Assembly: GCA_001655195.1 (NCBI GenBank)
Contig: LPNY01000027.1
Location: 1 to 64,000 of the forward strand
From: Arcobacter sp. EP1
Lineage (GTDB): Bacteria; Campylobacterota; Campylobacteria; Campylobacterales; Arcobacteraceae
Reading direction: 5' to 3'
Length of the DNA stretch: 64,000 nt
Shown here: piece by piece, positions 64 through 43,026 of the stretch
Position numbering within the stretch: the first letter of the stretch is position 1
How the letters are laid out: each line of letters begins with the position of its first letter
Program-made: the position numbers and the translations under genes
Notes under the pieces: generated by a model
Seen by the model: only the letters and a program-made list of their open reading frames with translations
Database searches by the model: none
What the model was told of the DNA's origin: nothing

Positions 64-2112
64 TTAAATTTTTCTAAAGTATTCTAAGTACTCTCCAACT
101 AAACGTAACACTTGTTCAAGCCAAATTGATTTAACTTGATTGACCTTCTTAATTTCATTTTTAATTTTTTTCTCATTAAAATAATAACAAAGGTACATGT
201 TCGTAAATTTAAAGTATGCAATCATTTGAAAATCAAGAAAGGTGGGGTAACCAATTTTACGAATACTATTTTCAACAAATGTCATAACATCGTATAGCTC
301 CATAAAAGATTTTAACTCTTGTGATTGTAAAGTGCTAATTTCATCATATACAGCAGTGAAATATTGAATTTCAGTTTGAATAGTTTCCTGCTCACTTTGA
401 GTTAATTGATGTTCAGAAATAGTATTAAGCTTTTCTAATAACTCATCTTTTAAGTCATCTTTATTTATCGGGTTAAAGGATCTACAATCAATATCTTCAA
501 CACGTTTAGCTTGTGTTCCTTCTAAAAACGCACCATAGTTTGAGAGATTAAAAACTTTTTGATATTGCTTTTTAAACATTGCTAACGATTGGGCATAAGC
601 AAAGATAGAGTTTATAAATATTCGTGTTGTGAAAACTTCTTTTTGAAAGTTACCTTTGACAGGAATTAGTTCATCTTTAAATGAAGACTTCTCGCTTGAA
701 AGCGTTTGAGTTATATCATAATCTTCTAAATCATGTTGCTTTGCAATCTCTTCTTTATATCCATAGTGAGTAGCACCTGTATCTTGATTAACGGCTAAAT
801 CTGTTCCTAATAAATATAATTCATCTACACCTAAATCCAAAAGTAAAGATACTGTAATTTCTCCAACACTATAACCTCGATAAACTGTTTCATTTTTCTT
901 TAATGAGTGGTTTACTTCATAAAAAAAGAGTTGCTCATCACTAAATCGATTACAAAAGTTTTCAGGAGAGAGAATTGAAGCCAAGATAATCGTTTTTTGT
1001 AGACTCTTTATATCTTCATCATTAAACTGATATGCTATTAAATCGCGATAACTAGGTTCAACTGTACTTAAAATATCAGGTACTATTTCATGTTCCATGA
1101 GTTTTCGATATGATGAACCAATTGTAACAATGACAAAACGTTCTTGATTTTGCTTTAACCATTCAATATTTTCACCTAAAGAAGGACCAGCGGCTACAAA
1201 TAAAACTGGTTTTTTACTTGAAAGGGTAAAAGTATTTTCTTTTTTATGAGGAACTAAAATTTTCTCACTATTAACTCTTTTTGTTGAGAGTTTTACCAAG
1301 TTATGTAAAACCCTCGTATAATCAAAAATTGCAGGGTTGACTTTATAAAGCGTTGAAATCATAGTATGCATTGCATTTGATACATTATAATTCGTTGTTG
1401 CAAATTTTAGATTATAATTTTCATACATATTCTTTTCTAAAAACAATTGAAATTTTGTCATGAATATATTTTCATCATCCATAATTGAAAAACTTACTGT
1501 TGAATTTTGAGCAAGTACGTCATAACTCGTTACGAATAATGAAAGTCTAAAAATCTCTAAGTTATATTCATAAATAAAGTAATGTTGTGAACCAACTTTT
1601 TTCTGTATATCTGGAATATGTCGTCCAAGTAATGTGCCTATAAAAATAAACTTATTAATATATTTAAAGTTTTTCTTACCTGTTGTATCATCTTTTAAAA
1701 TATCAGTAAAAGCTTTTACGTCGTTATTGATTATTCCCTCTATTTCTTCATAACTTTCATAATCTAAGTCAATATCAACATAAGGATTTTTTAAATCATA
1801 GGTTTCAGATATGAGCATTGAAAAATTTGAACTCTTATCAAACTTGACACTATTTACTATTTTATGATTAAACTGCTTTGCTTTTTTACTATAGACATAC
1901 TTATTAGTGGTCGAGTCAAGAATATCAAACTCACCCTTCTCTTTTATAAACTCCAGATGATAACGTTCCGGATATAATCCACTCTCTAATACTTCAGAGA
2001 GTCCCATAATTCTCGAATACAAATCTTTATCATTTTGTTTTAAAAACTCTAAGTTAGCAAAATAGGTTTCAACAAGCGCTTTTTGAAGTTGTTCTTCTGC
2101 ACTATTTGACAT
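64..2112 (-). CDS. Maf-type motility accessory factor (DUF115), putative flagellin glycosyltransferase
   Basis: This 682-residue protein matches the Maf/DUF115 family of flagellated bacteria, which transfers nonulosonic acids or related sugars onto flagellin in the cytoplasm before export. The hallmark is a Rossmann-like core at about residues 300-470, with the AAGPSL motif at 307-312 followed by VTIGSS, and LLGTDLA near 434-440. The N-terminal 290 residues and the C-terminal 190 residues, rich in helix, are as expected for the long Maf type. It is the last gene of the minus-strand glycan cluster, one base behind the DUF354 gene, and it is the best clue that the cluster product goes to flagellin. 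No flagellin gene is in the window, so the acceptor is inferred. Confidence 0.88.
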   Translation of the reverse strand: MSNSAEEQLQKALVETYFANLEFLKQNDKDLYSRIMGLSEVLESGLYPERYHLEFIKEKGEFDILDSTTNKYVYSKKAKQFNHKIVNSVKFDKSSNFSMLISETYDLKNPYVDIDLDYESYEEIEGIINNDVKAFTDILKDDTTGKKNFKYINKFIFIGTLLGRHIPDIQKKVGSQHYFIYEYNLEIFRLSLFVTSYDVLAQNSTVSFSIMDDENIFMTKFQLFLEKNMYENYNLKFATTNYNVSNAMHTMISTLYKVNPAIFDYTRVLHNLVKLSTKRVNSEKILVPHKKENTFTLSSKKPVLFVAAGPSLGENIEWLKQNQERFVIVTIGSSYRKLMEHEIVPDILSTVEPSYRDLIAYQFNDEDIKSLQKTIILASILSPENFCNRFSDEQLFFYEVNHSLKKNETVYRGYSVGEITVSLLLDLGVDELYLLGTDLAVNQDTGATHYGYKEEIAKQHDLEDYDITQTLSSEKSSFKDELIPVKGNFQKEVFTTRIFINSIFAYAQSLAMFKKQYQKVFNLSNYGAFLEGTQAKRVEDIDCRSFNPINKDDLKDELLEKLNTISEHQLTQSEQETIQTEIQYFTAVYDEISTLQSQELKSFMELYDVMTFVENSIRKIGYPTFLDFQMIAYFKFTNMYLCYYFNEKKIKNEIKKVNQVKSIWLEQVLRLVGEYLEYFRKI

Positions 2113-14464: not shown

Positions 14465-15600
14465 TATACTAACTCCTTGGCTTCTTCTTTCGAAAAAGAA
14501 CCTCTCCACGGTAGTAGTACACATTCAAACTCTTTTTCTAAAACTTTATTTAAAATAAGATTTTGAACATAAGGAACATCACTACAAGTCACCACAAGAG
14601 AATTTGCAAAATTCTCAAGTCTTTTTAATCCATATCGTTCCTCTTTCTCGTGAAGATAATTATCATCAAAAAAATAACAATTGGATAAATTAATAGACTC
14701 TTTTTTAAGACACTCCAACAAATAATAAAAGTAGTAACTCACTCCATAAAAGATTACATTTGAATTATTTGAATATTGAATAAGTTGGTATATCGCCTTT
14801 TTTTTATTCTCATTCATTAACTGTGTTCTACTTTGTATCCAATTAACCTCTAAATCCTTATACTCGATAGAAGAGAGTTCTTTTCTTCTTAATTTAAAAA
14901 TAGCCCTCAAAAAAGTACTATTCTCAATGGAAATACAAGTAAATTCTTCATTAAAAGCTCGATATAATGTATTTTGAGAAAAATAACTCACATGATCTGG
15001 AGCAAAGTCTTCAGTTAAACTTGCTAAACAGTTTTCTATATTAGGAACTTCAACATAAACAAAACCGTCGTCTGTTAGATTCTCTTTTAAAGTTTTTACA
15101 AACTCTTTTGGATGACAAATATGTTCAAATACATGTCTGATAATAATAATATCAAACTTACTTGAAAATAAATTCGCTTGAAAGTTCATTCTTAGGGTTG
15201 GAACTTGTAAATTCTCAAATTTAGTTGGTTCTATCCCAAGTATACTTATTTGCGGATTTTTTTGTTTTAATAAATAAAGAAAATCACCACGATTTGAGCC
15301 TATTTCGAGAACATTATTATATTGATTCGTAATAAAACCAGATACAAAAGATAATGAATCTATTGTTGTACGATCTTGTCTTGGAAAATCAAACACCGTA
15401 CTCATATCATAATTTTCATACACCTTTTGAATTTCACGTGCATACTCTTTACTATACGCAGTAGACTGAAAGATATATGAACAATTACTACAAACCTCAA
15501 CTCTAAAGTTTTTTAAGATTGAAATAGAATTCATAAATGGGACATTATCAGAAGCCAATAATGTTAATATAGTTAAATTATCACATAATGGACATTTCAA
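14464..15600 (-). CDS. Zinc-binding class I SAM methyltransferase (sugar C-methyltransferase-like)
   Basis: Cys3, Cys6, Cys37 and Cys40 form the N-terminal zinc site typical of deoxysugar C-methyltransferases of the TylC3/NovU type. The SAM-binding motif is LEIGSNRG at 108-115, with IIIRHVFEHI near 162-171 as the post-motif. The last 120 residues form a Rossmann-like domain (NVIFYGVSYYFYYLLECL), as in this family. Known members methylate nucleotide-bound 4-keto sugars, but many homologs in glycan clusters are uncharacterised. It is one base from the upstream gene and shares its stop with the next start. A second zinc-type methyltransferase is at 21714-22982. Confidence 0.78.
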   Translation of the reverse strand: MKCPLCDNLTILTLLASDNVPFMNSISILKNFRVEVCSNCSYIFQSTAYSKEYAREIQKVYENYDMSTVFDFPRQDRTTIDSLSFVSGFITNQYNNVLEIGSNRGDFLYLLKQKNPQISILGIEPTKFENLQVPTLRMNFQANLFSSKFDIIIIRHVFEHICHPKEFVKTLKENLTDDGFVYVEVPNIENCLASLTEDFAPDHVSYFSQNTLYRAFNEEFTCISIENSTFLRAIFKLRRKELSSIEYKDLEVNWIQSRTQLMNENKKKAIYQLIQYSNNSNVIFYGVSYYFYYLLECLKKESINLSNCYFFDDNYLHEKEERYGLKRLENFANSLVVTCSDVPYVQNLILNKVLEKEFECVLLPWRGSFSKEEAKELV

Positions 15601-23059: not shown

Positions 23060-24685
23060 CTAGCTCTCTTGAATAAAGTTTGCCATAGCAATATCTCTTT
23101 GTTCATTAAAATATTTTTCTCGGTATTTTTGAACATTTTTTAATAGTTTTGAATATGAAGCATCTTCTATTTTAGTACGTAAATCATGGATTTCATCATA
23201 TCTAAATGTTATACCAATCCCTTCTTCTTCAATAATATTAGCAATAAAACTATACTCTTTATTGCAAATAATAGGTATTCCAGCACTTACATATGTAATA
23301 ATCTTTGATAAAAAACAGGAATTTAAAATAGGGCTCATTTTATCAATAATAGGTTCTGTCATATGGTATAAAACAAGTCCAAAATCATACTTATTCAATA
23401 CAGATGGTAATCTTGAATGTTCAGTATTAAAGTAAATATCAAATTTCGTTTCTTCCTTTTTCATTATGCTATAACATTCATGCCCACAACTACTAAAAGT
23501 ATAAATATCAACAGTAAAATCTTGTTTTAGTAATGCTTTAAATTCACGAGTAGGAGTCATAAATGCTTTATAAAAATCTTTAGGGTTAGTATCAGCAGTT
23601 GTAGAATCCAAAGAACCGGCAAAACACACTTTAATGTCTTGAGATAATGAACTATTATCTTTATCTAGAATCTGAAAAGACTCTTTTTTCATAAAAAAAT
23701 TAATAAATATGGACTTTTTAGCTTCTTTCTTCAAGACCTCACTATAGTACTCACCACCATAACTACTTATTATTCCATCACTGTGCTTTAAAAGATACTC
23801 TTCACTTTTTGTCATTAGTTCAACATCGCTAACATCTTTATTTAAAATATATGCGAACTCAGAATTTGTAAAATTTGTCACCTTATACAACAACATATCT
23901 CCTGCTGCTAAAAAAATAAATTTCGTTTCAGGAGGTTTATTCATTAGAATGTAACAAGTAGACATCGTCACCATAGGAGTTGGTTTCATACATACTATTG
24001 TATGAGGAACAATCTCCTTTATCAAAGACTGCAAAGAGTTTGTTCTATGTGCAATTGATTGATTGTATGCAAAAATTGACTGATCCAAGATTAAATCAAA
24101 CTCTTTATCTAATTCATGAGAAAAGAAAAATGCATTCATATAAATTTTAATTAAATAATATTGTTCTTTGTACAAATAAGCAGACTCAGAGAACATATCA
24201 TTCTTACTATCCCAAACAATATGCAATAAAACTTTTTTGTCAGTTTTTCCTATTCTATTGATAAATTCTTTTTTAATATATTGGGGTAAGTGAATCTGAT
24301 TATAAATGGGTAAAACTTGCTGTTGCATCAACTTATACTCAAGTTGAAAACCTTCAATAGCTTCTTGAGTCCAAAAACCAAGCAATAAAACGTAATCAAA
24401 TTCTACAGTTTCTAGTTCTACTGATGTAATAATTTTTTGAGTAAACTCTTTTTCAATAAAAGTACTTTCTAAATTATCAGGTCTTAAAATAGCATTAACA
24501 CTCAATGATTTTAAACCGTCTACAAATTCAAAACTGTGTCCACCTGTACCAAAAATAATAAATTTCTTTTCACTATAATTTTTTTCAAGATATTGACAAA
24601 CTGCTTTTGTATTTTTCATATAAAATTCATTTTGCCCGTAACCTTCATCTAAAAGCTCTTTTCTTAATATTTCAATACTTTTCAT
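23060..24685 (-). CDS. Two-domain GT-B glycosyltransferase-like protein, paralog C
   Basis: A 541-residue relative of the tandem pair at 11259-14464. The N-terminal Rossmann-like domain has KFIIFGTGGHSFE (41-53) and VLLLGFWTQEAIEGF; the large C-terminal region has HSDGIISSYGGEY, CFAGSLDS, YDFGLVLYHM and YVSAGIPIICN, which line up with the same blocks in the paralogs. The motifs RKDVISV and WISSQ of the pair are not kept, so it is the most diverged of the three. It is followed by the internal promoter at 23009 and lies two bases behind the gene at 24688. Donor and acceptor unknown. Confidence 0.66.
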   Translation of the reverse strand: MKSIEILRKELLDEGYGQNEFYMKNTKAVCQYLEKNYSEKKFIIFGTGGHSFEFVDGLKSLSVNAILRPDNLESTFIEKEFTQKIITSVELETVEFDYVLLLGFWTQEAIEGFQLEYKLMQQQVLPIYNQIHLPQYIKKEFINRIGKTDKKVLLHIVWDSKNDMFSESAYLYKEQYYLIKIYMNAFFFSHELDKEFDLILDQSIFAYNQSIAHRTNSLQSLIKEIVPHTIVCMKPTPMVTMSTCYILMNKPPETKFIFLAAGDMLLYKVTNFTNSEFAYILNKDVSDVELMTKSEEYLLKHSDGIISSYGGEYYSEVLKKEAKKSIFINFFMKKESFQILDKDNSSLSQDIKVCFAGSLDSTTADTNPKDFYKAFMTPTREFKALLKQDFTVDIYTFSSCGHECYSIMKKEETKFDIYFNTEHSRLPSVLNKYDFGLVLYHMTEPIIDKMSPILNSCFLSKIITYVSAGIPIICNKEYSFIANIIEEEGIGITFRYDEIHDLRTKIEDASYSKLLKNVQKYREKYFNEQRDIAMANFIQES

Positions 24686-31589: not shown

Positions 31590-32429
31590 CTATTTCTTCC
31601 CTTTTAAATAATCTTCCAATGCTTCTTCCCAACTTCTTAAAGCGTTAAGTTTTATCGATAACATTGATGTCTTCAATGGCTTATGTGCCAATGCCTCAAA
31701 GTCATTATCTTTTGCTCTTTTGATATCACATTGTAATCCCAATATATCTTTTACTTTACAAATAAATTCATAATAACTCACTCTTCCCCTGTTTGCAATA
31801 TGATAAAGTCCAAATGATTTCCCTTGCATTAAAACATTTATCATTTCCGTTGCAACATCCAAAGAGTAGGTAGGAGTGTCTATCTTATCATCAGCAACAC
31901 TTATGGACTCTTTCTTTTCCATAAACTCAATCATTTTATCCACAAATCCCATGGCGTCGTTTCTTCTTTCTCCAAACATTGTAGGTACTCTAAAAATATA
32001 ATATTTAGCGCATACATTGGAGACTAAAGTATCGGCTGAAGCTTTTGCCATGCCGTAAATATTTGTTGGATTATACATATCATGTTCAGTATAAAAATTA
32101 TTAGATTCACCATCAAAAACAGCGTGAGAACTAACATGAATAAAAGTAATATTCTTTTCATGACATAACTGTGCTAAGGTATATGGTATTATTGTATTAA
32201 CTTCAAAAGCTTTTAACATCTCCTCTTCACAAGGGTTAATACCTACCATTGCAATACAATTAATAATAACTGTGGGAGCATGATTTATAATTACAGCTTC
32301 TAGTTCTTCTTTTTTTGTTGCTTCAATATCATTATGATTGAGTGCAATAAAATCCAAACTATTTATTTTACAAACCCTAATCAATGCCGTGCCTAAAACC
32401 CCAGACGAACCTAAAATCAATATTTTCAT
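31590..32429 (-). CDS. RmlD-like NAD(P)-dependent sugar-nucleotide reductase
   Basis: A 279-residue protein of the dTDP-4-dehydrorhamnose reductase (RmlD) superfamily: GSSGVLG at 7-13 binds the cofactor, VINCIAMVGINPCEEE corresponds to the family NAAAYTxVDxAE region, HVSSHAVFDG near 98-107 contains the catalytic Ser/Thr strand, and Tyr125-Gly-Met-Ala-Lys129 is the catalytic pair. Length agrees with RmlD. Genes rmlA, rmlB and rmlC are not in the window, so rhamnose is not implied; reduction of some other 4-keto sugar is likely. It lies 8 bases behind a radical SAM gene. Confidence 0.8.
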   Translation of the reverse strand: MKILILGSSGVLGTALIRVCKINSLDFIALNHNDIEATKKEELEAVIINHAPTVIINCIAMVGINPCEEEMLKAFEVNTIIPYTLAQLCHEKNITFIHVSSHAVFDGESNNFYTEHDMYNPTNIYGMAKASADTLVSNVCAKYYIFRVPTMFGERRNDAMGFVDKMIEFMEKKESISVADDKIDTPTYSLDVATEMINVLMQGKSFGLYHIANRGRVSYYEFICKVKDILGLQCDIKRAKDNDFEALAHKPLKTSMLSIKLNALRSWEEALEDYLKGKK

Positions 32430-32437
32430 ACGTTATC

Positions 32438-33517
32438 CTATATAAAATTTACATGTGGTGGGGCAGTTTTAATCTTACTTAAAAACTGATTGACATAATG
32501 TTGTCGACAATTGGTTTCACAGTCTTTGATAACATCCACACTTTCGATACGTTTTTGAACGTTCCAATATTGTTCACTATTAACAATGTCTTTAAACGAT
32601 GTTTCAACAATATTACCCATTAAAAACTCTTCTGGACGAATATTAAACCAGTGACCACATGGAAATACATTACCATTACCACTAACTGCTAAAATAAATT
32701 TTGTTCCGTAACAGACTTGATAATCTTTTTTACCCTCATTCATCATTTTAGCCCATTTTACGGACACAATATATTCATCATCACTATACGATTCTGCTTC
32801 TTTAAAGATATCTTCCATATCTTTATACTCTTTATCTGGAGAATTTAAACGTTTATCAAATGTATCAGAGGTTGGTTTTACAACAAGGTAATCTACTCCA
32901 AGTTCTTTTCCTAGTTTTGCTAAAGGGACAACATCATCTACATTATCATGCATTAAAACCATTTGTAAACCAATAGTAGCTTTTAAATTATACTTCTTTT
33001 TAATTTCAACACATTTTTTAATATTATCTAAGATTTTTAAATACTCATCTTCTCTAACTTTATGCATATTATAAAAAGACTCTGCCCCCACTGCTGAAAA
33101 ATTAAACCTTATCCAAGTTAAAGACTCAAGCATATCTTTTATACGATCATGTTCTATTTCTATTCCATTAGTAGCCAAGCTAACATCAAGTCCAATCTCT
33201 TTTGCATAATTTAAAGAATCATATAAAGCAGGATTCAATGTGTTTTCACCTTCACCAATAAAGGCTATTGAACGAACACCTACATCTTTTGAATCTTTTA
33301 GAAACCTTAGAATTGCTTCTTTAGGCATCAAGTATCCACCATATTCACCTTTTCGACCTTGAATAACACCATAACAATATTTACACCCCATATTACATCC
33401 TGTAACAATTCCAAAATCAATATGTAAAGGGGCATTTCTTTTTCCCGATTGCCACTCATGTACTCGGTCTAAATGCCATAATAATTTATGGCTATCCATC
33501 ATAAATTTATCTGCCAA
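32438..33517 (-). CDS. Radical SAM/SPASM enzyme
   Basis: Cys41, Cys45 and Cys48 (CNMGCKYC) are the cluster ligands; the SAM-contact motif is GEGEN instead of GGEP. Cysteines in CYGTKFILAVSGNGNVFPC and in DCETNCRQHYVNQF at the C-terminus fit a SPASM domain. The 359-residue protein is a paralog of those at 34769-35839 and 38202-39260: all three share a T(W)(I/L)R(F/I) strand after the first half-barrel and a conserved start around DSHK or its equivalent. Its substrate is unknown, but its place in a run with two other paralogs and a split transketolase hints at a dedicated sugar pathway. Confidence 0.84.
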   Translation of the reverse strand: MADKFMMDSHKLLWHLDRVHEWQSGKRNAPLHIDFGIVTGCNMGCKYCYGVIQGRKGEYGGYLMPKEAILRFLKDSKDVGVRSIAFIGEGENTLNPALYDSLNYAKEIGLDVSLATNGIEIEHDRIKDMLESLTWIRFNFSAVGAESFYNMHKVREDEYLKILDNIKKCVEIKKKYNLKATIGLQMVLMHDNVDDVVPLAKLGKELGVDYLVVKPTSDTFDKRLNSPDKEYKDMEDIFKEAESYSDDEYIVSVKWAKMMNEGKKDYQVCYGTKFILAVSGNGNVFPCGHWFNIRPEEFLMGNIVETSFKDIVNSEQYWNVQKRIESVDVIKDCETNCRQHYVNQFLSKIKTAPPHVNFI

Positions 33518-33528
33518 GATATACCCCT

Positions 33529-34254
33529 TTATTTTTCTAGTATATTTAAAAATGTATGTTGATAAGATATTCCCATAAATTGAAAATATTCACTAATCAA
33601 ACTATGTAATTGTTTTTGTCGCTTTCTAAAAAGTTCATTAGTAATGCATTGATTCATTACCCACTCAAATCTTTTTTCTGATTCAAGTTCACTTGTATAT
33701 AATTCTAAAATTTCTTCTTCATTTAACGTACCAAAATACAAATTTCTTAAAATATCAATTGGTGCTTTAATCTCATATTGATAGTCTATAAACTGTGGCA
33801 AATATTCAAAATAAATTTTCTCTTTATTTAAAAATGCCCCTTCCATTGAGCTCTTTACCGATTCTAATATATCAAAAGGTGTTGAATTAAAACAGTCTTG
33901 TTCTAGTCTATTATATAAGTTATACAAAATATTTGCAGAAAATCTCAAACAAATATCACTTTTAAGAATTAAACTTTTACTATTCTCCTGAGAGATATCA
34001 ATTCTGTTAAGAAAAGAATGAAAATAGGATTTAAGACCATCTTCATACTTACTATCATTACAGTGAATAATAAATCTAATCTCAGAATACTGAATTAGTA
34101 AATTTTTAATATAAGAAAACTCTTTTTTCTCACTAGGACATATTGAGAAAAGAGTAATTACACTCTCCTCTTTCTTTACCTTTTCTTCTGAGAGATTACA
34201 TACACATTCAATAGCTAAAGATGCTTCATATTCATATTTCTCTAAACTCGTCAT
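33529..34254 (-). CDS. Protein of unknown function
   Basis: I do not recognise this 241-residue protein. It is rich in Glu, Lys, Leu and Ile, predicted to be soluble and mixed alpha/beta at the start (VITLFSICPSEKKEF, IRFIIHCNDSKYEDGL) and strongly helical in the second half. It has no signal peptide, no membrane segment and no clear nucleotide-binding loop. The strand pattern in the first 80 residues could be half of a Rossmann or GT-B fold. It overlaps the WbuC-like gene by 4 bases and precedes a radical SAM gene by 11 bases, so it is part of the same operon. A partner or chaperone for a radical SAM enzyme is one option. Confidence 0.6.
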   Translation of the reverse strand: MTSLEKYEYEASLAIECVCNLSEEKVKKEESVITLFSICPSEKKEFSYIKNLLIQYSEIRFIIHCNDSKYEDGLKSYFHSFLNRIDISQENSKSLILKSDICLRFSANILYNLYNRLEQDCFNSTPFDILESVKSSMEGAFLNKEKIYFEYLPQFIDYQYEIKAPIDILRNLYFGTLNEEEILELYTSELESEKRFEWVMNQCITNELFRKRQKQLHSLISEYFQFMGISYQHTFLNILEK

Positions 34255-34772
34255 AACGATACACCATAATTATTCAAAAATAAATCTATTTCTTTCGTTC
34301 CAGAAGAGGGAGACCAATCAGCAAAAATTGTATCTTTATCTCTAAGAAATGGGCCAAGTGCTATTTCATGGAAAGTCACAATAGTCGTCAAAGGAATCAA
34401 AAGAATAAATGTACCTTTTTCTACCCGACAAATTTTACTTTCCTTCTCATCTAAAGTTATTCGATTTATTTCATTTGCATTCTCATCTAAAAAAATCATA
34501 AGTACTGAACCATTCAAAATCTGATATGTTTTTGCTTTTTGAAAATTTGCATGGGGTCGAATATAATTACCTTTATAATGAGAAATAATCATATTATGTA
34601 ATTGCTCTTCACTATTAGGATGCATACATATACGCACAGTAGACTTTTCTTTATTTGCAATGTTTTCAAGCCATTGAATCATCTCATCATTAATTATTTG
34701 AAAGGAATCTTTTTTAAAAAAATATGTTTGACTTTTTGCTTCTGAATTTGCAATTAAATTTTCTAAACTCAT
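34251..34772 (-). CDS. WbuC-family cupin protein
   Basis: This 173-residue protein resembles WbuC, a cupin-fold protein of O-antigen clusters. A helical N-terminus is followed by RICMHPNSEEQLHNMII, YIRPHANFQKAKTYQILNG with the first cupin metal ligands, and GPFLRDKDTIFADWSP at the C-terminus, all of which recall WbuC. The exact reaction of WbuC is not known to me; a metal-dependent sugar isomerase or epimerase step is usually suggested. It overlaps neighbours by 4 bases on both sides. Confidence 0.75.
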   Translation of the reverse strand: MSLENLIANSEAKSQTYFFKKDSFQIINDEMIQWLENIANKEKSTVRICMHPNSEEQLHNMIISHYKGNYIRPHANFQKAKTYQILNGSVLMIFLDENANEINRITLDEKESKICRVEKGTFILLIPLTTIVTFHEIALGPFLRDKDTIFADWSPSSGTKEIDLFLNNYGVSL

Positions 34773-35839
34773 ACAAATCCCAAATGGTCACTATCTACAT
34801 TTAAATAGTCAAGAATCATTTTATTTTTTTCATTTGCTACACAGTGGTTATTACAATCACATTTTGGATTAATCTTATAGAATTTATTCTTATCACTAAA
34901 CCAAAACTCTTTAAAACTGCTCTCTTTTATTGTACCAACCAAACCATTATCAAGATTATAAGCCTTGTCTTGACAAGGATAAATATTTAAATCTGCTCCA
35001 ATAACAGGTAAGATCTGCAAATAAGGACACCATTCATAATCTTTTTCAAATTTATCTTCTAATAAATGATATGAATCATAGATTTCAAATGTCTCATCAT
35101 GAAACTCTTTTATTGCCTTTTGTGTTTGCAATTTAACTTCATCATAAATAGGCTTATGGTATTCATTATTAACCTTTCCATCATTATCAACAATACATGG
35201 AGAAATTTTAATGCTATCAGCCCCTGTAGACTTAATTAACTTAATAAAATTATATATATGTTTATAATTTTTGTTATCTATAATAAAACTAACCCCTAAA
35301 GCACATTTACCGCCAAGTGCTTTAAAATTTTTCATATTAGTAATAACTTTTGTAAATTCACCCTCTTTAATACTTCGATACTCGGCATAACTTTTATCAT
35401 CCCAACCGTCAATTGAAATTCGTAGCCAGGTAGCATGATGAGCAAATATCTCAGCAATTTCTCCATCAAGCTTTGCCCCATTTGTTAAAGAGGCAAAAGA
35501 AATAGGCGTGTCTTTTAACTTTTTTACTGCATCTAAAAGGTATTTATAATAAAAAGGATCTCCTCCACCACTAAAAGTAATGGCTTTTACCCCCATATCT
35601 AAACAATCATCTATAATTTCAAAAATTTTTTCTTTTGGGATAGAATCTTTAGTAACCATATCCTGTCCCAATTGTAAATCATCTGATTTATAAGCACAAT
35701 ACCAACAGCTATGAGCACAAACATTTGTTGGTTTTATACGTATATGAATAGGAGGCTTAATCTCTGGATTATTTTTTGGTAAACTGTCAATTTTATCTTT
35801 AAAATGAAAAATTTTTAATTGAGAATACTTAGACATCAT
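34769..35839 (-). CDS. Radical SAM/SPASM enzyme
   Basis: Cys41, Cys45 and Cys48 (CAHSCWYC) bind the SAM cluster and SGGGDP replaces GGEP. The C-terminal part with EWCPYLQILPVIGADLNIYPC and CDCNNHC fits a SPASM-type auxiliary cluster domain. The 356-residue protein is a paralog of 32438-33517 and 38202-39260. Between it and the next paralog lie a methyltransferase and the two transketolase subunits. Paralogs side by side usually act on successive intermediates or different positions of one substrate; here that is an inference. Confidence 0.84.
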   Translation of the reverse strand: MMSKYSQLKIFHFKDKIDSLPKNNPEIKPPIHIRIKPTNVCAHSCWYCAYKSDDLQLGQDMVTKDSIPKEKIFEIIDDCLDMGVKAITFSGGGDPFYYKYLLDAVKKLKDTPISFASLTNGAKLDGEIAEIFAHHATWLRISIDGWDDKSYAEYRSIKEGEFTKVITNMKNFKALGGKCALGVSFIIDNKNYKHIYNFIKLIKSTGADSIKISPCIVDNDGKVNNEYHKPIYDEVKLQTQKAIKEFHDETFEIYDSYHLLEDKFEKDYEWCPYLQILPVIGADLNIYPCQDKAYNLDNGLVGTIKESSFKEFWFSDKNKFYKINPKCDCNNHCVANEKNKMILDYLNVDSDHLGFV

Positions 35840-35846
35840 TTACTCC

Positions 35847-36509
35847 TTATTCAAAATAGATAAATTCATAATCACCTGTATAACCATACTCGTTATACAA
35901 CCAAATCCACTCATCAGGTCTAAAAAAACTTTCACAAGTCAATGCCCAACACTCTAAATTAAAAAGTTCTGTATCATTCCGGTAAGCTTCTACCATTATA
36001 TAAGCATTTTTTGATACTCTTTGAACTTCTTGAAGTGCCGATTTCAATTCATATACTTTTAAATTATGTAATGTAGTTAAAGAGATGACTAAGTCAAACT
36101 CATTATCACCAAAGGGATAAATATCTTGAGCTTTATGGCTAAAAAGATTTGGTTTCATCTCTTCTTTTGCATTTTCTAATCCATACTCCGAACTATCAAA
36201 ACCCACAATTTTAGCATTTGGAAGCAATTGTTGTAACTCATAAATTAAAAATGCCTTACCACAACCAACATCTAAGATTTTACAACCATCTTGTAAATTA
36301 TATTGTGCAATAAGATCTTCTGCTACAACTTTCCATCGTCCATCATACTTGTATCCTCCATAACCAAAACGTCTATCTCCATCCCAATAATCATGTCCAT
36401 ATTCTTTAGATTTTGTCATACAAGTTATTTTTTCATCAACCATTCGAGAAACATAATCTCTCGAAGTTTTTGTATGTAATTTTGTTACAATATTTAAAAG
36501 TTGTCCCAT
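35847..36509 (-). CDS. Class I SAM-dependent methyltransferase
   Basis: The 220-residue protein has KILDVGCGKAF at 77-87 (motif I), IVGFDSSEYGLENAKEE near 100-116 (acidic loop and following helix) and FDLVISLTTLHNL (motif IV), which is the standard small-molecule methyltransferase layout of the Methyltransf_11 type. It overlaps the transketolase C-subunit gene by one base. The likely target is a sugar intermediate, but homologs act on many small molecules, so this is only context. Confidence 0.8.
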   Translation of the reverse strand: MGQLLNIVTKLHTKTSRDYVSRMVDEKITCMTKSKEYGHDYWDGDRRFGYGGYKYDGRWKVVAEDLIAQYNLQDGCKILDVGCGKAFLIYELQQLLPNAKIVGFDSSEYGLENAKEEMKPNLFSHKAQDIYPFGDNEFDLVISLTTLHNLKVYELKSALQEVQRVSKNAYIMVEAYRNDTELFNLECWALTCESFFRPDEWIWLYNEYGYTGDYEFIYFE

Positions 36510-37417
36510 TATTTTATTACCTCAAGAATTTCACTTCCTACACTTTTTGCATCAATTCCATAAAAGGCACGAAGATAATCCCTATTACCTATTTTATGGA
36601 TATACTCATTCTTAATACCAAACTTATTAATTTTCTTGAAAATATTATGTTGGTTACAATATTCATTTAAGATAGAGCCAAAGCCTCCATTAACATAGTG
36701 TTCTTCTAATGTAAAAATATGTTCAAAATCATCTAACAACTCGCTAAAGTCATAATTTGTAGTAAGCATAGGAACAGTCGCAATTGTTATTGACTTATTA
36801 TTCGCTTTTAATAAAGCTTCAATAGCATCAACCTCATCAATAATAGAACTATGTACAAACAAAATTCCATCACTACCCTCTTTGATTATAATAGGTTTCG
36901 AGATATCAATATCTTCATTTGCATGAATCTGTGCCTCTCCTGCTTTTGGTATTCTAATATATGAAGGAAGATTACTATTATATGCATACTCAAAGCATTT
37001 TTTTGCTTCAATAGGGTCTGCGGGTGAAAAAATATCAAGATTAGGCATTGTTTTACCTAATGCAATATCTTCTACGACATAGTGTGTCATACCAGCAGGA
37101 GCATATGTTATACCACTACCTGTACCTATTAAAATTACGGGTAGGTTTTGATAGCAAATATCATTACGAACTTGTTCATATGGTCGCATTATAACAAAAG
37201 GTGCAATATTATAAAATATTGGTTTATGCCCTCTAAGAGCCATTCCCGCAGCTAAACCAATGTCACACTGTTCATTTACCCCTGGGTTAATATATTGTTT
37301 AGGAAAATCCACTTTGTAATCATCCCAAACACCAAGACCTGCATCTCCAGCAATTAAATATAAATTCTTATCTTCTTTTGCCTTTTTAATAATCTCATTT
37401 GCAACTGTATTTCTCAT
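36509..37417 (-). CDS. Transketolase, C-terminal subunit
   Basis: The 302-residue protein covers the pyrimidine-binding and C-terminal domains of transketolase: YLIAGDAGLGVWDDYK near the start, YINPGVNEQCDIGLAAGMALRG with the catalytic-position Glu, and RPYEQVRNDICYQNLPVILIGTG-type strands. The last third, with ILFVHSSIIDEVDAI and HIFTLEEHYVNGGFGSILNE, is the transketolase C domain. The N-terminal subunit is coded directly upstream with a 4-base overlap. Split transketolases of this kind are common in special sugar pathways and rarely serve the pentose phosphate cycle. A ketol transfer to or from a cluster-specific sugar is likely. Confidence 0.85.
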   Translation of the reverse strand: MRNTVANEIIKKAKEDKNLYLIAGDAGLGVWDDYKVDFPKQYINPGVNEQCDIGLAAGMALRGHKPIFYNIAPFVIMRPYEQVRNDICYQNLPVILIGTGSGITYAPAGMTHYVVEDIALGKTMPNLDIFSPADPIEAKKCFEYAYNSNLPSYIRIPKAGEAQIHANEDIDISKPIIIKEGSDGILFVHSSIIDEVDAIEALLKANNKSITIATVPMLTTNYDFSELLDDFEHIFTLEEHYVNGGFGSILNEYCNQHNIFKKINKFGIKNEYIHKIGNRDYLRAFYGIDAKSVGSEILEVIK

Positions 37418-38193
37418 GATAACTCTTTTAATGCTTTTTCTTTGATTTCATCTGTAACAATAAAATAGTGCCAAATCAATTCATCTTCCATAAAAGGAAC
37501 ACCTTTACCTTTAACTGTATTACAAATAATAGCTTTAGGTTTATCAGACTGAATATTTGCAGTTTGTTCAATCTCATCATAATCATGTCCATCAATCACG
37601 TAAGTATCCCATCCAAAACTTTCCCATTTTTCCTTAACAGGATAAAACTCTACAAGTTCAGTAGCTCTTCCATATCCTTGAAGATTATTGTGGTCAATAA
37701 ATATTGTCAAATTATCTAAACCAAGTTTAGGTGCTAACATTGCAGCTTCCCAAACAGATCCTTCTTGCATCTCACCATCACCCATTAGGACAAAGACCTT
37801 ATTTGATTCTTCTTTAAGTTTAATAGAATTAGCAATTCCTAATGCCATTGGTAATCCATGTCCTAAACTTCCAGCACTAATTTCTATAAAATCACTAGTA
37901 TCTCTATCAGTATGAGCAGGAAGTGTTCCATCATTTTGATAATATCCATCAATATCTTCTTTACTCATAAAGCCTTTTTCATATAAGGTTGAATACAATG
38001 ACATTGCAGAATGTGCTTTTGAAAGAATAAAATAATCACGATGATCTTGTATTGGGTTTGTAATATTTAAAACTTTAAAATAAAGTGTCGATATTATATC
38101 TGCACACGAAAGTGCAGAACCTACATGAGGAGACTTTGAAGCATTTGCCATCTGAAGAATGGTCTTACGAATATTAGTTGCAATAGCTTTCAT
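37414..38193 (-). CDS. Transketolase, N-terminal (thiamine diphosphate-binding) subunit
   Basis: The TPP/Mg motif runs from GDGE (138-141) to DHNNLQ (167-172), with SVWEAAMLAPKLGL between. Earlier, SKAHSAMSLYSTLYEKGF near 58-75 and ISAGSLGHGLPMALG near 105-119 carry the conserved His residues of transketolases. At 259 residues it is exactly the N-terminal half, with the rest in the downstream gene. It lies 8 bases behind a radical SAM gene. The reaction is transfer of a two-carbon ketol unit from a ketose to an aldose; a role in making a chain-extended or branched sugar of the glycan is inferred from context. Confidence 0.87.
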   Translation of the reverse strand: MKAIATNIRKTILQMANASKSPHVGSALSCADIISTLYFKVLNITNPIQDHRDYFILSKAHSAMSLYSTLYEKGFMSKEDIDGYYQNDGTLPAHTDRDTSDFIEISAGSLGHGLPMALGIANSIKLKEESNKVFVLMGDGEMQEGSVWEAAMLAPKLGLDNLTIFIDHNNLQGYGRATELVEFYPVKEKWESFGWDTYVIDGHDYDEIEQTANIQSDKPKAIICNTVKGKGVPFMEDELIWHYFIVTDEIKEKALKELS

Positions 38194-38201
38194 TTTTACC
38201 C

Positions 38202-39260
38202 TTATATAAAATTAATATGTTCTATATCTGGATGTTTGATATTCCAAAGATAGTTATTTATTTGATGATGTCGACAGTTGGGTTGACACATATTTTTATC
38301 AATACAATCATTAATATAGTTAACGGCATCTTTTTTTTCTTTAGATTGCCAAATCTCTTTAAAACTCTTTTCAAAAATATTACCATGAATTGTTTTTTTG
38401 TCATGCTGATGAGAGAAACAAGTATAAACATCCCCCAGCTCATCAATAAATACAATAAATTCTAATCCGTAACACTTATTATAAATACGTGTTGAGGATA
38501 AATTCTGGGTACTCCGCACAACAAATGAGAAATTCTTATCACTGATATTTTCAGACTCAGATTCTAAAATTTTTAAAAAGTTCTCATCTAAAAAATTTGA
38601 ATCTGTACTATACTCATTATGTAAATGATTATAAAAATGTTTTACACTAAAATAATCAACACCTAAACTTTTCAAACGATTTGCATGTTCTATAATAAAG
38701 TCTTTATTTTCAGGAATGAGTACACACTGACTTCCTATTGTTATATTGCTTTTTAAGCGATCCTTCGTTTCTTTTAACTTTTTAATATTTTCAATAACTT
38801 TATCAAAGTCAGCTGAATCCGTTTGATGTACAAGGGCATAGTTTTCTGCGCTTCCTGCGTTAAAAGAAAATCGAATCCATGTTAAATTTTTAGCCAGTAT
38901 TTCAAAATGTTTATCCTTCAAAATTGCACCATTTGTACTTAATGCAACATCAATTCCTAAACTTTTTGCCAATTGTATTGCTTCAAATGTATCTACATGT
39001 AAAGTCGGTTCTCCATTACCTGCAAAAACTAAAGATTTTACGCCCATGCTTGCAAACTCACGTACTAACTCTAACATTTTGCCTTTCTTAAATCGTCCTT
39101 CATGTCCTAAGTAATTATAATTACAAAACAAGCACTTATGATTACAAACTCCAGTAGGAGATATCTCTACATAAATAGGTGCGCCTAAGTCTCCATCTAA
39201 AAAATTAGCTATCTCTTTTGGATGATAGTTTATTTTATGTGAATCTAGTAAATTAGCCAT
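38202..39260 (-). CDS. Radical SAM/SPASM enzyme
   Basis: Counted from the ATG at 39260, Cys39, Cys43 and Cys46 (CNHKCLFC) form the SAM cluster and GNGEP is the SAM-contact motif. CYGLEFIVFIDELGDVYTC and the final MCQPNCRHHQINNYLW match a SPASM-like end very similar to that of the paralog at 32438-33517. Longer starts at 39284 and 39305 are possible, but the chosen ATG lines up with the paralog start (MANLLDSHK against MADKFMMDSHK) and overlaps the upstream gene by only 8 bases. About 352 residues. Substrate unknown. Confidence 0.83.
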   Translation of the reverse strand: MANLLDSHKINYHPKEIANFLDGDLGAPIYVEISPTGVCNHKCLFCNYNYLGHEGRFKKGKMLELVREFASMGVKSLVFAGNGEPTLHVDTFEAIQLAKSLGIDVALSTNGAILKDKHFEILAKNLTWIRFSFNAGSAENYALVHQTDSADFDKVIENIKKLKETKDRLKSNITIGSQCVLIPENKDFIIEHANRLKSLGVDYFSVKHFYNHLHNEYSTDSNFLDENFLKILESESENISDKNFSFVVRSTQNLSSTRIYNKCYGLEFIVFIDELGDVYTCFSHQHDKKTIHGNIFEKSFKEIWQSKEKKDAVNYINDCIDKNMCQPNCRHHQINNYLWNIKHPDIEHINFI

Positions 39261-40218
39261 CAATATACTCTCTATCTTTTTCATAATTATAGATTCCCAA
39301 ACCAAAATTATTATTAGTTTCTAAATCTAATCTCTCTTCATTAGTTAATTCTCTAATGTTTTGGATATCGACAGAAGTGTGTCCAAAAACTTGATGTCTG
39401 TTTGTCTTAACTTTAATATCACAAGGATTACAATGTCCAAAGACATAACACGGTCGATGAATTTGTTCAATATCAAAGTTAGGGTCCAAGATATGCCCAA
39501 TAGGCGTTCTATTCTCATACAAATCAGAGTGACATCTAAAGACGTGACCACTAGGTGCAAGAATTAACTCTGTTGTCTTACAGTCACAATACTTTTCTAC
39601 GCGTTGAGATATCGCTTCAGGATATTTGTAAGTTCCGTGCCACTCTTGTCCATCAAAACCAAGATACTCTTTAACTCGAAAATCAATACCTTCGTCTAAA
39701 CACTTCTTTTGAACTTCTTCAATATGGGTTTTATTTTGAGGAACCATCACAGCATAAATACCGATATAAAAACCAGCTTTATCAAACTTCTTTGCTTTTT
39801 CAATCAAATCATCAATATCATTTTGCCCAGGATGATAACTCACACGAATAGCAGCATACTTTGCTTCTCGGGTAAATTTTTGAGCATCAATATTTTCGAT
39901 AAAAGCATCCACATCAAATACCATATTAGTTAATAAGTCAAGCTTTACATCCTCATCTACACCATTAACCATCTCAAAAAAGTCTTTATGCATGGTAGGC
40001 TCTCCGCCTTGAAGAGTTACGGGTAAATCAGGATTAAGAATTTTTAAACGATTAAGTGCTTTGGCCCAGTTCTTACCCGACATCGCTTTTCTCGAAACAC
40101 TTTTTCGGGTTGAACTCTCTTCATTTAGATTAATACAATAATTACAAGTAAGATTACATCCCAAGGAGACAAATGCTCCTATATAATTATATTCATTTGG
40201 TACTACAATTTCTTTCAT
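39253..40218 (-). CDS. Radical SAM enzyme with C-terminal cysteine cluster
   Basis: The protein begins almost directly with the barrel: Cys21, Cys25 and Cys28 (CNLTCNYC) and QGGEPTMH as SAM-contact motif. The C-terminal part contains YCDCKTTELILAPSGHVFRC and RPCYVFGHCNPCDIK, giving at least six cysteines for auxiliary clusters. With 321 residues it is the shortest radical SAM protein of the cluster and is more distant from the three paralogs downstream. It lies 4 bases behind the glycosyltransferase gene at 40223-41863. Function unknown beyond radical chemistry. Confidence 0.83.
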   Translation of the reverse strand: MKEIVVPNEYNYIGAFVSLGCNLTCNYCINLNEESSTRKSVSRKAMSGKNWAKALNRLKILNPDLPVTLQGGEPTMHKDFFEMVNGVDEDVKLDLLTNMVFDVDAFIENIDAQKFTREAKYAAIRVSYHPGQNDIDDLIEKAKKFDKAGFYIGIYAVMVPQNKTHIEEVQKKCLDEGIDFRVKEYLGFDGQEWHGTYKYPEAISQRVEKYCDCKTTELILAPSGHVFRCHSDLYENRTPIGHILDPNFDIEQIHRPCYVFGHCNPCDIKVKTNRHQVFGHTSVDIQNIRELTNEERLDLETNNNFGLGIYNYEKDREYIDG

Positions 40219-40222
40219 TCTA

Positions 40223-41863
40223 TTACTCTTTATTTAAACTAACTACATATTTGTTATCGTCAAGGGATAGAAACTCATTGACACTCTCTCCACCTGGATC
40301 TGGGAAAGTGTTTAAATAAACATCTATCACCCGTCCATAAACTTTTGGATTTACAAAACCTGTGAATATAAAACGCTCCTCAAGGCTATGTTTTCTAACC
40401 ACTTCCTCAATACGAGACTTATCACCATCACCACATGCTAAATAGATTGTTTTTGGATTTTTTTTCATTATTTGAAAAACTGTTTGTAAATATTTATCAT
40501 TGTCAATTTTTATTAATCGCCCTACACTTCCAAGAATAGTGTAATCAGAAGGAAAACAATCACGTACTTCTTTTGCACTTTGTTCCAAACCAGTCTCTTG
40601 AGACTTCTTATAATCACCTAAAACAAAAAAACTTTCCATTTCAAAAGAACAAGTTGGTGATATTCCACAATGTGAAATTCTTTTATCAATTCCTTCAATA
40701 TCATACTCTTCATTACTTCCATGATACCAATAAAACTGCTGGGGGGCGGTTCTTGTTCCATAGAAAAAAATGTACTCTATTCGTGTGTGTAAGCCAATGA
40801 AGATATCAACTTTATCTTCAATTAAAATTTCGCGAGATTTTATACATTTTTCCAATAAAGAATATGTTTGATTACTATTCCCAAATATTTTTTCATGTAA
40901 ATTGACATATTCTATACCCAATAACTTAAATTCTTCAACATAGGTAGCATCACTTCCATTAGATTCTGGAAAAGCCAAATCATACAAAACAAATTCATAG
41001 TTATCTTGTTTCTCAGACAACACTTTTTTTAATAAATTAAATAAAACATGCACTGTTGAATGTCGAATGATTCGCTGCATAACAAATGCAACTTTTTTCT
41101 TTTTATTCTTTTCAGGTTTTCGAGTATTTGGTTGTATGTTATATTTGGGAATTACTTTCTCTTCTATATATTTTTCAAGTGGTTTTTCAATCTCTTGTTT
41201 AAACCGTTCATTAGCTTCATGCTTATTACTGTGTGTTCCAGAGTTAAAATAGTGTAAAGGAGTATAATATAACCAAAATGCCACTTCTGTTTTCTCATAG
41301 ACTAAGGCTGTATGAAAAAGTTTCTTTAACTCACCATAAGCAAATTGTGAAGCTTCATTATCTTGAAAAACTTGTAAGGATAAATTCCAAGCTTTATAAA
41401 GACAATCTATTTGAATACTTTCATCAAGGGTTAAAAAACTATTATTAAAAATATATTGCATAAAATCAGAGAAAAGATCTTTTACCGTAGCATTCATCAC
41501 AGAAAAAATAGAAAATGCATCAGAAAAATGTTCTTTTGAAACACGTAAAAAAAGATACACATAAAGTGCCTTTTTAATATCTTCTTCTTTTCCTATTAAG
41601 AAATCTAAAGCCGTTCGAATCGACAAATTAACCGCTGTGTTAAAATGCAATTCCTCTTGCAAAATTCCAATAATTTCATTGAGTTCATTATTATGTACGT
41701 ATTTTACATCATACGTTTTAAGTAACATTATGTCTTGAATAAATGTTGTAGTTAAAGGTAGACTTACGTAGTTATTTTCTCCATAAAAAGTCGCTATTTG
41801 TACTATATCTTGATGAAGTAGTTGGGATACTTGTTGTTGTAGTTCTTCTTTACTCTCATTCAT
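40223..41863 (-). CDS. GT-B glycosyltransferase-like protein with short C-terminus
   Basis: Residues 1-250 are helical with no clear repeats; from about 256 (KKKVAFVMQRIIRHST) a GT-B fold begins, with YDLAFPESNG, DIFIGLHTRIEYIFFYGTRTAPQQ, YWYHGSNEEYDI and, in the second half, ILGSVGRLIKIDNDKYL, LACGDGD and RFIFTGFVNP. The block YLNTFPDPGGESVNEF (516-531) is the donor-binding motif found in SPINDLY-type and bacterial protein glycosyltransferases, but the chain stops 15 residues later, where relatives usually run on for about 100 more. It overlaps the CMP-sugar synthetase gene by 4 bases. Either a natural short form or a truncated gene. Confidence 0.68.
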   Translation of the reverse strand: MNESKEELQQQVSQLLHQDIVQIATFYGENNYVSLPLTTTFIQDIMLLKTYDVKYVHNNELNEIIGILQEELHFNTAVNLSIRTALDFLIGKEEDIKKALYVYLFLRVSKEHFSDAFSIFSVMNATVKDLFSDFMQYIFNNSFLTLDESIQIDCLYKAWNLSLQVFQDNEASQFAYGELKKLFHTALVYEKTEVAFWLYYTPLHYFNSGTHSNKHEANERFKQEIEKPLEKYIEEKVIPKYNIQPNTRKPEKNKKKKVAFVMQRIIRHSTVHVLFNLLKKVLSEKQDNYEFVLYDLAFPESNGSDATYVEEFKLLGIEYVNLHEKIFGNSNQTYSLLEKCIKSREILIEDKVDIFIGLHTRIEYIFFYGTRTAPQQFYWYHGSNEEYDIEGIDKRISHCGISPTCSFEMESFFVLGDYKKSQETGLEQSAKEVRDCFPSDYTILGSVGRLIKIDNDKYLQTVFQIMKKNPKTIYLACGDGDKSRIEEVVRKHSLEERFIFTGFVNPKVYGRVIDVYLNTFPDPGGESVNEFLSLDDNKYVVSLNKE

Positions 41864-43026
41864 ATTTTATTCTCTTTTCTCAGTAACTCGATAAACTCTC
41901 TAACAGCACCATTGCCACCACTTTTAGTAAGCTTAATTATACTAAACATTTCTTCAATTTCGCTTAATGAATTAGAAGGGCATGCGGCGATACCTGCACA
42001 TTCTAGTAACTCTTTGCAATTAATATCATCCCCAATATAGGCTACCTCATCTAAACTAATTCCCTCTTTTTCACAAATTTCTTTTGCTATGTCTAACTTG
42101 CCTCCATGTTCTACACCTTGATATAAATAATCAACTTTCATTTTTTTCGCACGATTTTCTACTATCTTAGTATTTTCACTTGTTATTAATCCCGTTTTAA
42201 TACCTAGACTTCTTAATATTTCAAAGCCTTTTCCATCATGAGTATTAAACTTTTTTAACTCATTGCCATTAATATCATAATACATACCAGCATCTGTTAG
42301 GGTACCATCAACATCACTTAAAAAGAGTTTTATTTTTTTATTGGGAACTATTTTTTTTGATAAAATATGTTCTTGCATATATTTTTCTGCAATAACCCAA
42401 TCTAAATGTTCATCAATTTCAATTGAAGTATAATCTTGCATAATATATAAAGAAATTTTCCCACTTAATCTGTTTTTATCTCTTAAAATATTCCCAACAC
42501 TATTAATATAAAAAGCACCATTTTCTAAATAAAAACCATCAAAATCTTGACGTCGAGGACGATTCTCATAATCATAGTTCATAGGGGTTCCATCACTATT
42601 CCAATAAAATCGCTTTTCGTTTACTACAGTTAAAAGGGAATCACAACAGCTATTATCTAACTGTCCTAATGCGTTATCAAAATCTTCAGCTTGTGTAATA
42701 GGGGATGTTGCTTGTACCAATAAGAACTTATCATCATCATTAAAATCATTATATTGTAAAAACTCCAACAGAACAGCTTCTGTTGCAGATTTATCTTGCG
42801 CATTCTCTTTACTTCGTTGAAAAACTTTTACCTTTGAAAATGCAAATTTTTTAACTACATCTTCTATTTCCTGACAATCTGTTGCTACGTAAACCTCATC
42901 AATCAAAGAAGCATTTTCTAATGCTAAAAGATTCCAATAAATTAGTGGTCTCCCACAAAACTCTTTAATATTTTTAAAACGTATGGCCTTACTTCCACAT
43001 CGTGCGGGTACAAAAGCTATATTCAT
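41860..43026 (-). CDS. Fused CMP-nonulosonate synthetase and KdsC-like HAD phosphatase
   Basis: Residues 1 to about 225 are an acylneuraminate cytidylyltransferase (NeuA type): FVPARCGSKAIRFKNI near 5-20 binds CTP, with VATDCQEIEDV and QATSPIT further on. Residues 232-388 are a HAD phosphatase of the KdsC/NeuA C-domain type with the nucleophile motif DVDGTLTD at 238-245, GLITSENT and YIGDDINC. Together they would dephosphorylate a nonulosonate 9-phosphate and activate it with CMP. AAGGA lies six bases before the ATG. The neighbour upstream is the NeuB-like synthase, so the order of genes follows the pathway. Confidence 0.88.
   Translation of the reverse strand: MNIAFVPARCGSKAIRFKNIKEFCGRPLIYWNLLALENASLIDEVYVATDCQEIEDVVKKFAFSKVKVFQRSKENAQDKSATEAVLLEFLQYNDFNDDDKFLLVQATSPITQAEDFDNALGQLDNSCCDSLLTVVNEKRFYWNSDGTPMNYDYENRPRRQDFDGFYLENGAFYINSVGNILRDKNRLSGKISLYIMQDYTSIEIDEHLDWVIAEKYMQEHILSKKIVPNKKIKLFLSDVDGTLTDAGMYYDINGNELKKFNTHDGKGFEILRSLGIKTGLITSENTKIVENRAKKMKVDYLYQGVEHGGKLDIAKEICEKEGISLDEVAYIGDDINCKELLECAGIAACPSNSLSEIEEMFSIIKLTKSGGNGAVREFIELLRKENKI

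Follow-up and report, generated by a model that had tools for sequence, protein, structure and literature searches.

We analysed bases 1 to 64,000 of contig C126 (the window) from the 3.0 Mb genome of Arcobacter sp. EP1, class Campylobacteria, and focused on a block of radical S-adenosylmethionine (SAM) enzymes and a split transketolase (TK). The block lies in a glycan island that extends from 64 to 44718, has every gene on the minus strand and is bordered by recA-eno. The island encodes a Maf flagellin glycosyltransferase, several radical SAM enzymes, glycosyltransferases, short-chain dehydrogenases/reductases (SDRs), NeuB and a NeuA-HAD fusion. The operon that holds the block is gap-free, with intergenic distances of -53 to 11 bases across 31590 to 43026 on the minus strand. 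An earlier, sequence-only reading had picked out the genes between 32438 and 40218, and all of them were found there on the minus strand, abutting or overlapping. The genes that carry the argument are as follows.

32438..33517, minus strand: rSAM_A, twitch-type radical SAM enzyme (PF04055, PF13186; four C-terminal Cys)
34769..35839, minus strand: rSAM_B, radical SAM enzyme with an extra invariant Cys179 (54-70% orthologs across several phyla)
35847..36509, minus strand: class I SAM-dependent methyltransferase, the usual rSAM_B partner (PF13847)
36509..37417, minus strand: TKC, transketolase C-terminal half with Pyr and C domains (PF02779, PF02780)
37414..38193, minus strand: TKN, transketolase N-terminal half with the thiamine diphosphate domain (PF00456; match to the split TK 6yak, 3e-57)
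38202..39260, minus strand: rSAM_C, twitch-type radical SAM enzyme (PF04055, PF13186)
39253..40218, minus strand: rSAM_D, divergent radical SAM enzyme that has seven additional invariant Cys and marks TK clade T1

The start of rSAM_C is probably the ATG at 39260 (MANLLDSHK, matching homologs) rather than the TTG at 39305 that opens the reading frame. BLASTP bore out the predicted paralogy of rSAM_A, rSAM_B and rSAM_C (32438 vs 38202, 31%, 4e-56; 34769 vs 38202, 28%, 9e-29; 32438 vs 34769, 22%, 1e-22) and the greater distance of rSAM_D, whose match to rSAM_C was weak (39253 vs 38202, 3e-7). In a tree with 63 relatives, rSAM_A, rSAM_B and rSAM_C formed separate lineages and rSAM_D was remote. 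The three paralogs had been called SPASM enzymes, a label that we do not retain. Their conserved C-terminal Cys number four (CX17C...CX3C), where SPASM has seven, and this pattern is invariant in the alignments of groups A (7), B (21) and C (23). Among the three, only 32438 and 38202 exceeded the cut-off of the Pfam SPASM model. Published definitions separate the seven-Cys SPASM motif, with two auxiliary clusters, from the twitch type (PMC6231123, PMC9012708). By sequence, rSAM_A, rSAM_B and rSAM_C match the twitch-type pattern, with CX3CX2C and a predicted single auxiliary cluster held by four Cys ligands as in BtrN.

The SAM-contact motifs GEGEN, GGGDP and GNGEP are present as reported earlier, but the argument that they mark different intermediates fails because the motif also varies inside each ortholog group; the rSAM_B group, for instance, has GGGDP in 7 members and GGGEP in 14. 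Motif variation as a mark of different substrates was thus ruled out. The AlphaFold model of rSAM_B (pLDDT 88) has DesII as its nearest solved fold, and that of rSAM_C (pLDDT 86) lies near SuiB, DesII and BlsE. These fold neighbours would be compatible with a sugar substrate and do not prove one. As a guess by analogy, Cys179 of rSAM_B might act as a hydrogen donor for epimerisation.

The Pfam models Transketolase_N, Transket_pyr and Transketolase_C all exceeded their gathering scores, spread over TKN and TKC, and the TKN tree placed the window pair in clade T1 (support 100/99). The sequence-only reading had named one outcome as fatal to its proposal, namely that this pair is the only TK of the genome. 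It is not: a housekeeping TK of 641 amino acids is encoded elsewhere, on C175 (E 9e-124). We mapped TK residues through this housekeeping enzyme and give them in E. coli numbering, for nine T1 rows. H26, H66, H100, H261, H473, E411, D155, N185 and the GDG...N motif are kept in all rows. In yeast and E. coli TK, H461 and S385 serve the phosphate and D469 the acceptor hydroxyl. In 9/9 T1 rows H461 is replaced by G, S385 by G, D469 by A or S and R520 by K, leaving R358 as the only member of the phosphate/acceptor set that is kept. In the alignment, the solved phosphosugar split TK 6yaj retains the equivalents of H461 and D469. The separate TK and the changed phosphate and acceptor residues rule out a housekeeping role; judged on these residues, the cassette TK is not a pentose-phosphate enzyme.

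For the comparisons, L numbers label loci, G numbers genomes, and g11 and g20 genera. The sister clade of T1 (support 96/88) consists of L102, L103 and L104, from three genera, where TKN-TKC is placed amid RfbF, RfbG, an SDR and RfbH. RfbG (cytidine diphosphate (CDP)-glucose 4,6-dehydratase) exceeded its curated cut-off in 3/3 loci, and RfbF (glucose-1-phosphate cytidylyltransferase) and RfbH did so in L103 and L104, the two loci scored. Enzymes of the RfbF/RfbG/RfbH type make CDP-3,6-dideoxy-4-keto-D-glucose. To this compound the thiamine enzyme YerE adds a two-carbon unit in yersiniose A synthesis (PMC12247030). By analogy, the sister-clade TK pair occupies the slot where YerE would act. Elsewhere, HddC exceeded its cut-off beside the glycan-locus split TK of L111, and GmhA/HldE-like genes occur with rSAM_C and a split TK in L046, L112, L116, L117, L048, L050 and L060. 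The common factor of the split-TK glycan loci is a sugar nucleotide able to carry a ketone.

Split TKs of a further clade, T2 (L035, L046-L048, L056, L060, L112, L113 and L117), have a C-terminal half of about 160-185 amino acids without Transketolase_C, and His100 is replaced by Cys in most. An approximately unbiased test gave p 0.043 for a single clade of T1, T2 and L050/L051, but p 0.094 for T1 joined with T2 only; as the latter grouping is not rejected, independent recruitment is only suggested. A GSU2086-family protein stands beside HldE-like and GmhA-like genes in L060, L048 and L051, with NF052581 over its cut-off in L060.

One check proposed with the original prediction was to look for the gene block in other genomes, and parts of it recur in many genomes of several phyla. 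In our class survey sample of 298 Campylobacteria genomes, nine other genomes encode rSAM_B orthologs at 58-70%, and orthologs at 54-67% occur in Arcobacteraceae, Omnitrophota, Nitrospirota, Elusimicrobiota, Geobacter, Desulfovibrionaceae and others. The recurring order in g11 and g20 is GT40 - rSAM_D - rSAM_C (one to three copies) - TKN - TKC - methyltransferase - rSAM_B, and the order rSAM_D - rSAM_C - TKN - TKC is found in Geobacter (with the methyltransferase and rSAM_B), G240 and G163. Three Nitrospirota loci have rSAM_B with no TK or methyltransferase nearby. Every T1 TK locus that is uncut by a contig end contains rSAM_D and an rSAM_C-type gene. Conversely, rSAM_D was detected in 11 of the 298 genomes and adjoins a T1 TK in all of them (hypergeometric probability 4e-19, ignoring kinship). 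Orthologs of rSAM_A adjoin TK in L099, L100, L035, L113, L116 and L117, and methyltransferase orthologs of about 57-77% adjoin rSAM_B in most loci. Because it recurs in many genomes, the block is more than a chance assembly: it is a recurrent cassette. The remaining genes of the operon and the island's Maf gene that bear on its function are listed here.

64..2112, minus strand: Maf-type flagellin glycosyltransferase, encoded in the same island (PF01973, PF20157, over cut-off)
31590..32429, minus strand: RmlD-like SDR, candidate branch-ketone reductase (TIGR01214, 197 bits, under the cut-off of 224)
33529..34254, minus strand: orphan protein of 241 amino acids (no Pfam/NCBIfam match)
34251..34772, minus strand: WbuC-family cupin (TIGR04366, 84 bits, over the cut-off of 42)
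40223..41863, minus strand: GT-B-type glycosyltransferase (GT40), upstream of rSAM_D (PF00534, 37.6 bits)

GT40 homologs at 32-40% hold the same position in L036-L040, L042, L043 and L099, and RmlD-like relatives at 33-42% adjoin the same TK clade in L099, L100 and L058. WbuC lies close to the cassette in several loci; homologs of the 33529 gene were absent from the rest of the class sample. In nine related loci the cassette has flagellin and Maf genes as neighbours (L040, L042, L043, L099, L100, L046, L047, L116 and L124, which is the flank of L037), and the cassette sugar is probably attached to flagellin. We found no paper on radical SAM enzymes with flagellin glycosylation and Maf, and none on Campylobacter with transketolase, radical SAM enzymes and capsule.

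The genes, the conservation of the block, the changes in the active site, the operons of the sister clade and the flagellin and Maf genes near the cassette in relatives are observed; from them we infer the reactions and their order. We estimate at roughly 50% the probability that the block is a cassette for tailoring a surface-glycan sugar, likeliest of a flagellin O-glycan, in which the split TK branches a keto-sugar nucleotide with a two-carbon unit. In this scheme rSAM_D or rSAM_C would oxidise a secondary alcohol of a sugar nucleotide to a ketone, in a BtrN-like step that would take the role of RfbG/RfbH in the sister operons; radical SAM genes in T1 loci hold the place that the dehydratases have there. 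Onto this ketone the split TK would then transfer a hydroxyacetyl (glycolaldehyde) unit, and the product would be a branched-chain sugar bearing a tertiary alcohol. The RmlD-like SDR, present in the window and in L099, L100 and L058, may afterwards reduce the branch ketone. Further tailoring (O-methylation, epimerisation or a second oxidation) could be done by the methyltransferase with rSAM_B, and by rSAM_A. The context and the active-site residues give good support to the earlier proposal of a ketol transfer and radical steps that act on an unusual sugar; its order would need revision, as one radical step or more probably precedes the transfer. A wider version, in which radical SAM enzymes unmask a ketone and split TKs add hydroxyacetyl as a cross-phylum route to branched sugars, with flagellin decorated in Campylobacteria and the radical SAM step phase-variable in some lineages, is tentative and to us somewhat short of an even bet.

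Several observations weigh against the keto-sugar branching scheme. The window contains no flagellin gene; the contig breaks off at base 1, next to Maf, and the flagellins detected are on other contigs. RfbF/G/H, which would name the acceptor, are absent from the window and from the other T1 loci. Phosphate-site changes alone are no proof of a ketone acceptor, because TKs beside sugar-phosphate genes share them. rSAM_C also bears a resemblance to SuiB and SkfB, which act on peptides. The RmlD-like gene is absent from the g11/g20 loci, and BLASTP against the SDR of L102-L104 gave no significant match (E about 0.05), so that its candidacy as a homolog of that SDR is unsupported.

The original prediction had left the product as a chain-extended or branched sugar, and we find branching of a keto-sugar likelier. 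In a chain extension, the TK would join a two-carbon unit and an aldose phosphate into a longer ketose phosphate (an octulose or unusual heptulose), which GmhA-like and HldE-like enzymes would convert to a nucleoside diphosphate (NDP)-higher sugar before radical modification. The T2 and L050/L051 TKs do share their loci with a divergent GmhA-like isomerase, an HldE-like enzyme or both, and rSAM_C is usually present too; the isomerases and HldE-like enzymes that were scored fall under the equivalog cut-offs, a hint of a non-standard substrate, and the lincomycin octose follows comparable logic (LmbR, then LmbN). However, such genes are absent from the window and from all T1 loci except the truncated L101, T2 is a different TK clade that lacks the TK C-terminal domain and has mostly lost H100 to Cys, and the clade nearest T1 sits in keto-sugar nucleotide operons. 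We consider chain extension unlikely here. The heptose-type genes that accompany several split TKs, together with NeuB/NeuA in the island, would also fit a TK that merely boosts local sedoheptulose-7-phosphate or pentose phosphate for heptose or nonulosonate synthesis, with the radical enzymes acting on unrelated sugars. Such a supply role sits poorly with a complete housekeeping TK in the genome and with phosphate and acceptor residues changed in all T1 TKs, and we regard it as quite improbable.

It is very improbable that the radical SAM enzymes are maturases of metalloenzymes or of ribosomally synthesized and post-translationally modified peptides (RiPPs) that lie in the glycan island by chance. 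Their best NCBIfam match is TIGR04317, a tungsten-oxidoreductase maturase, yet it is weak (82-104 bits, cut-off 380), and SuiB and SkfB are among the best folds. Against this, the glycan-gene context is fixed across phyla, the genes between 31590 and 43026 lie no more than 11 bases apart and leave no room for a precursor-peptide gene, and no N-terminal domain like a RiPP recognition element was seen in the models. On the last two points we rejected a RiPP maturase reading, and action of the paralogs on ribosomal peptides, which the sequence-only reading had listed against itself, finds no support in them.

Homopolymer runs of 8-14 G or C occur in many cassette genes of L036-L043 (g11, g20), at densities that reach 13 per 20 kb, a pattern as in phase-variable genes. 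The runs affect rSAM_C types, WbuC, methyltransferases and further radical SAM genes; none occurs in the window. A phasome study of Campylobacter fetus listed two radical SAM genes among the phase-variable genes (PMC6321876).

The island contains at least eight radical SAM genes within 3182-40218 (starting at 3182, 6483, 19915, 28616, 32438, 34769, 38202 and 39253). The one at 6483-9077 encodes an 864 amino acid fusion of a family 2 glycosyltransferase and a radical SAM domain. At 41860-43026, a fusion of a CTP-dependent cytidylyltransferase and a HAD-type phosphatase adjoins NeuB, suggesting a 9-phosphate nonulosonate route. Four proteins of 416-553 amino acids at 10012-14524 and 23060-24685 have no Pfam match and are similar by eye; they are perhaps a new glycosyltransferase family.

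In a 2025 review, split transketolases figure as candidate enzymes that use a ketone acceptor, still unproven in vitro (PMC12247030). The cassette offers a compact, widespread and genetically testable case of such an enzyme and gives a specific residue signature. If the keto-sugar branching scheme is true, surface glycans are built with radical SAM chemistry, and some bacterial flagellin glycans contain sugars beyond the known nonulosonic acids.

Among known systems, the Carboxydothermus split transketolase (6yaj/6yak) is the closest solved split TK by sequence, but H461 and D469, the phosphosugar residues missing from T1, are still present in it. In the lincomycin octose pathway, a transfer enzyme builds the carbon chain and a GmhA-like isomerase follows, parallel to the T2 loci, although the transfer enzyme is a transaldolase instead of a transketolase and there is no radical SAM cassette. 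DesII, acting on a thymidine diphosphate (TDP)-sugar, and BlsE, on cytosylglucuronate, rank with the solved structures closest in fold to rSAM_B and rSAM_C, whereas identity is 13-16% and their reactions are deamination and decarboxylation. BtrN, the twitch radical SAM dehydrogenase of butirosin synthesis, oxidises a ring alcohol to a ketone with a four-Cys single auxiliary cluster (PMC9012708). rSAM_A, rSAM_B and rSAM_C have the same four auxiliary-site Cys, but BtrN is much shorter and overlaps poorly with rSAM_C in structure (TMq 0.37); close kinship to rSAM_C is unsupported. The yersiniose A system shares a thiamine enzyme that adds a two-carbon unit to a keto-sugar nucleotide within a glycan cluster, and the sister TK clade stands in the matching slot among RfbF/G/H. 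YerE itself is a decarboxylase-type thiamine enzyme that uses pyruvate, whereas the cassette enzyme is a split transketolase whose Pfam and PDB matches are to transketolase/DXS and not to the AHAS/decarboxylase type; in the window, radical SAM enzymes occupy the position expected for RfbG/H. Split-gene TKs have also been proposed, and are unproven, for hydroxyacetyl addition to keto-sugars in miharamycin and amipurimycin (PMC12247030). These are streptomycete antibiotics made with an ordinary oxidoreductase, yet by description, not sequence, they resemble the cassette in the split TK, the proposed ketone acceptor and the prior oxidation step (PMC12247030).

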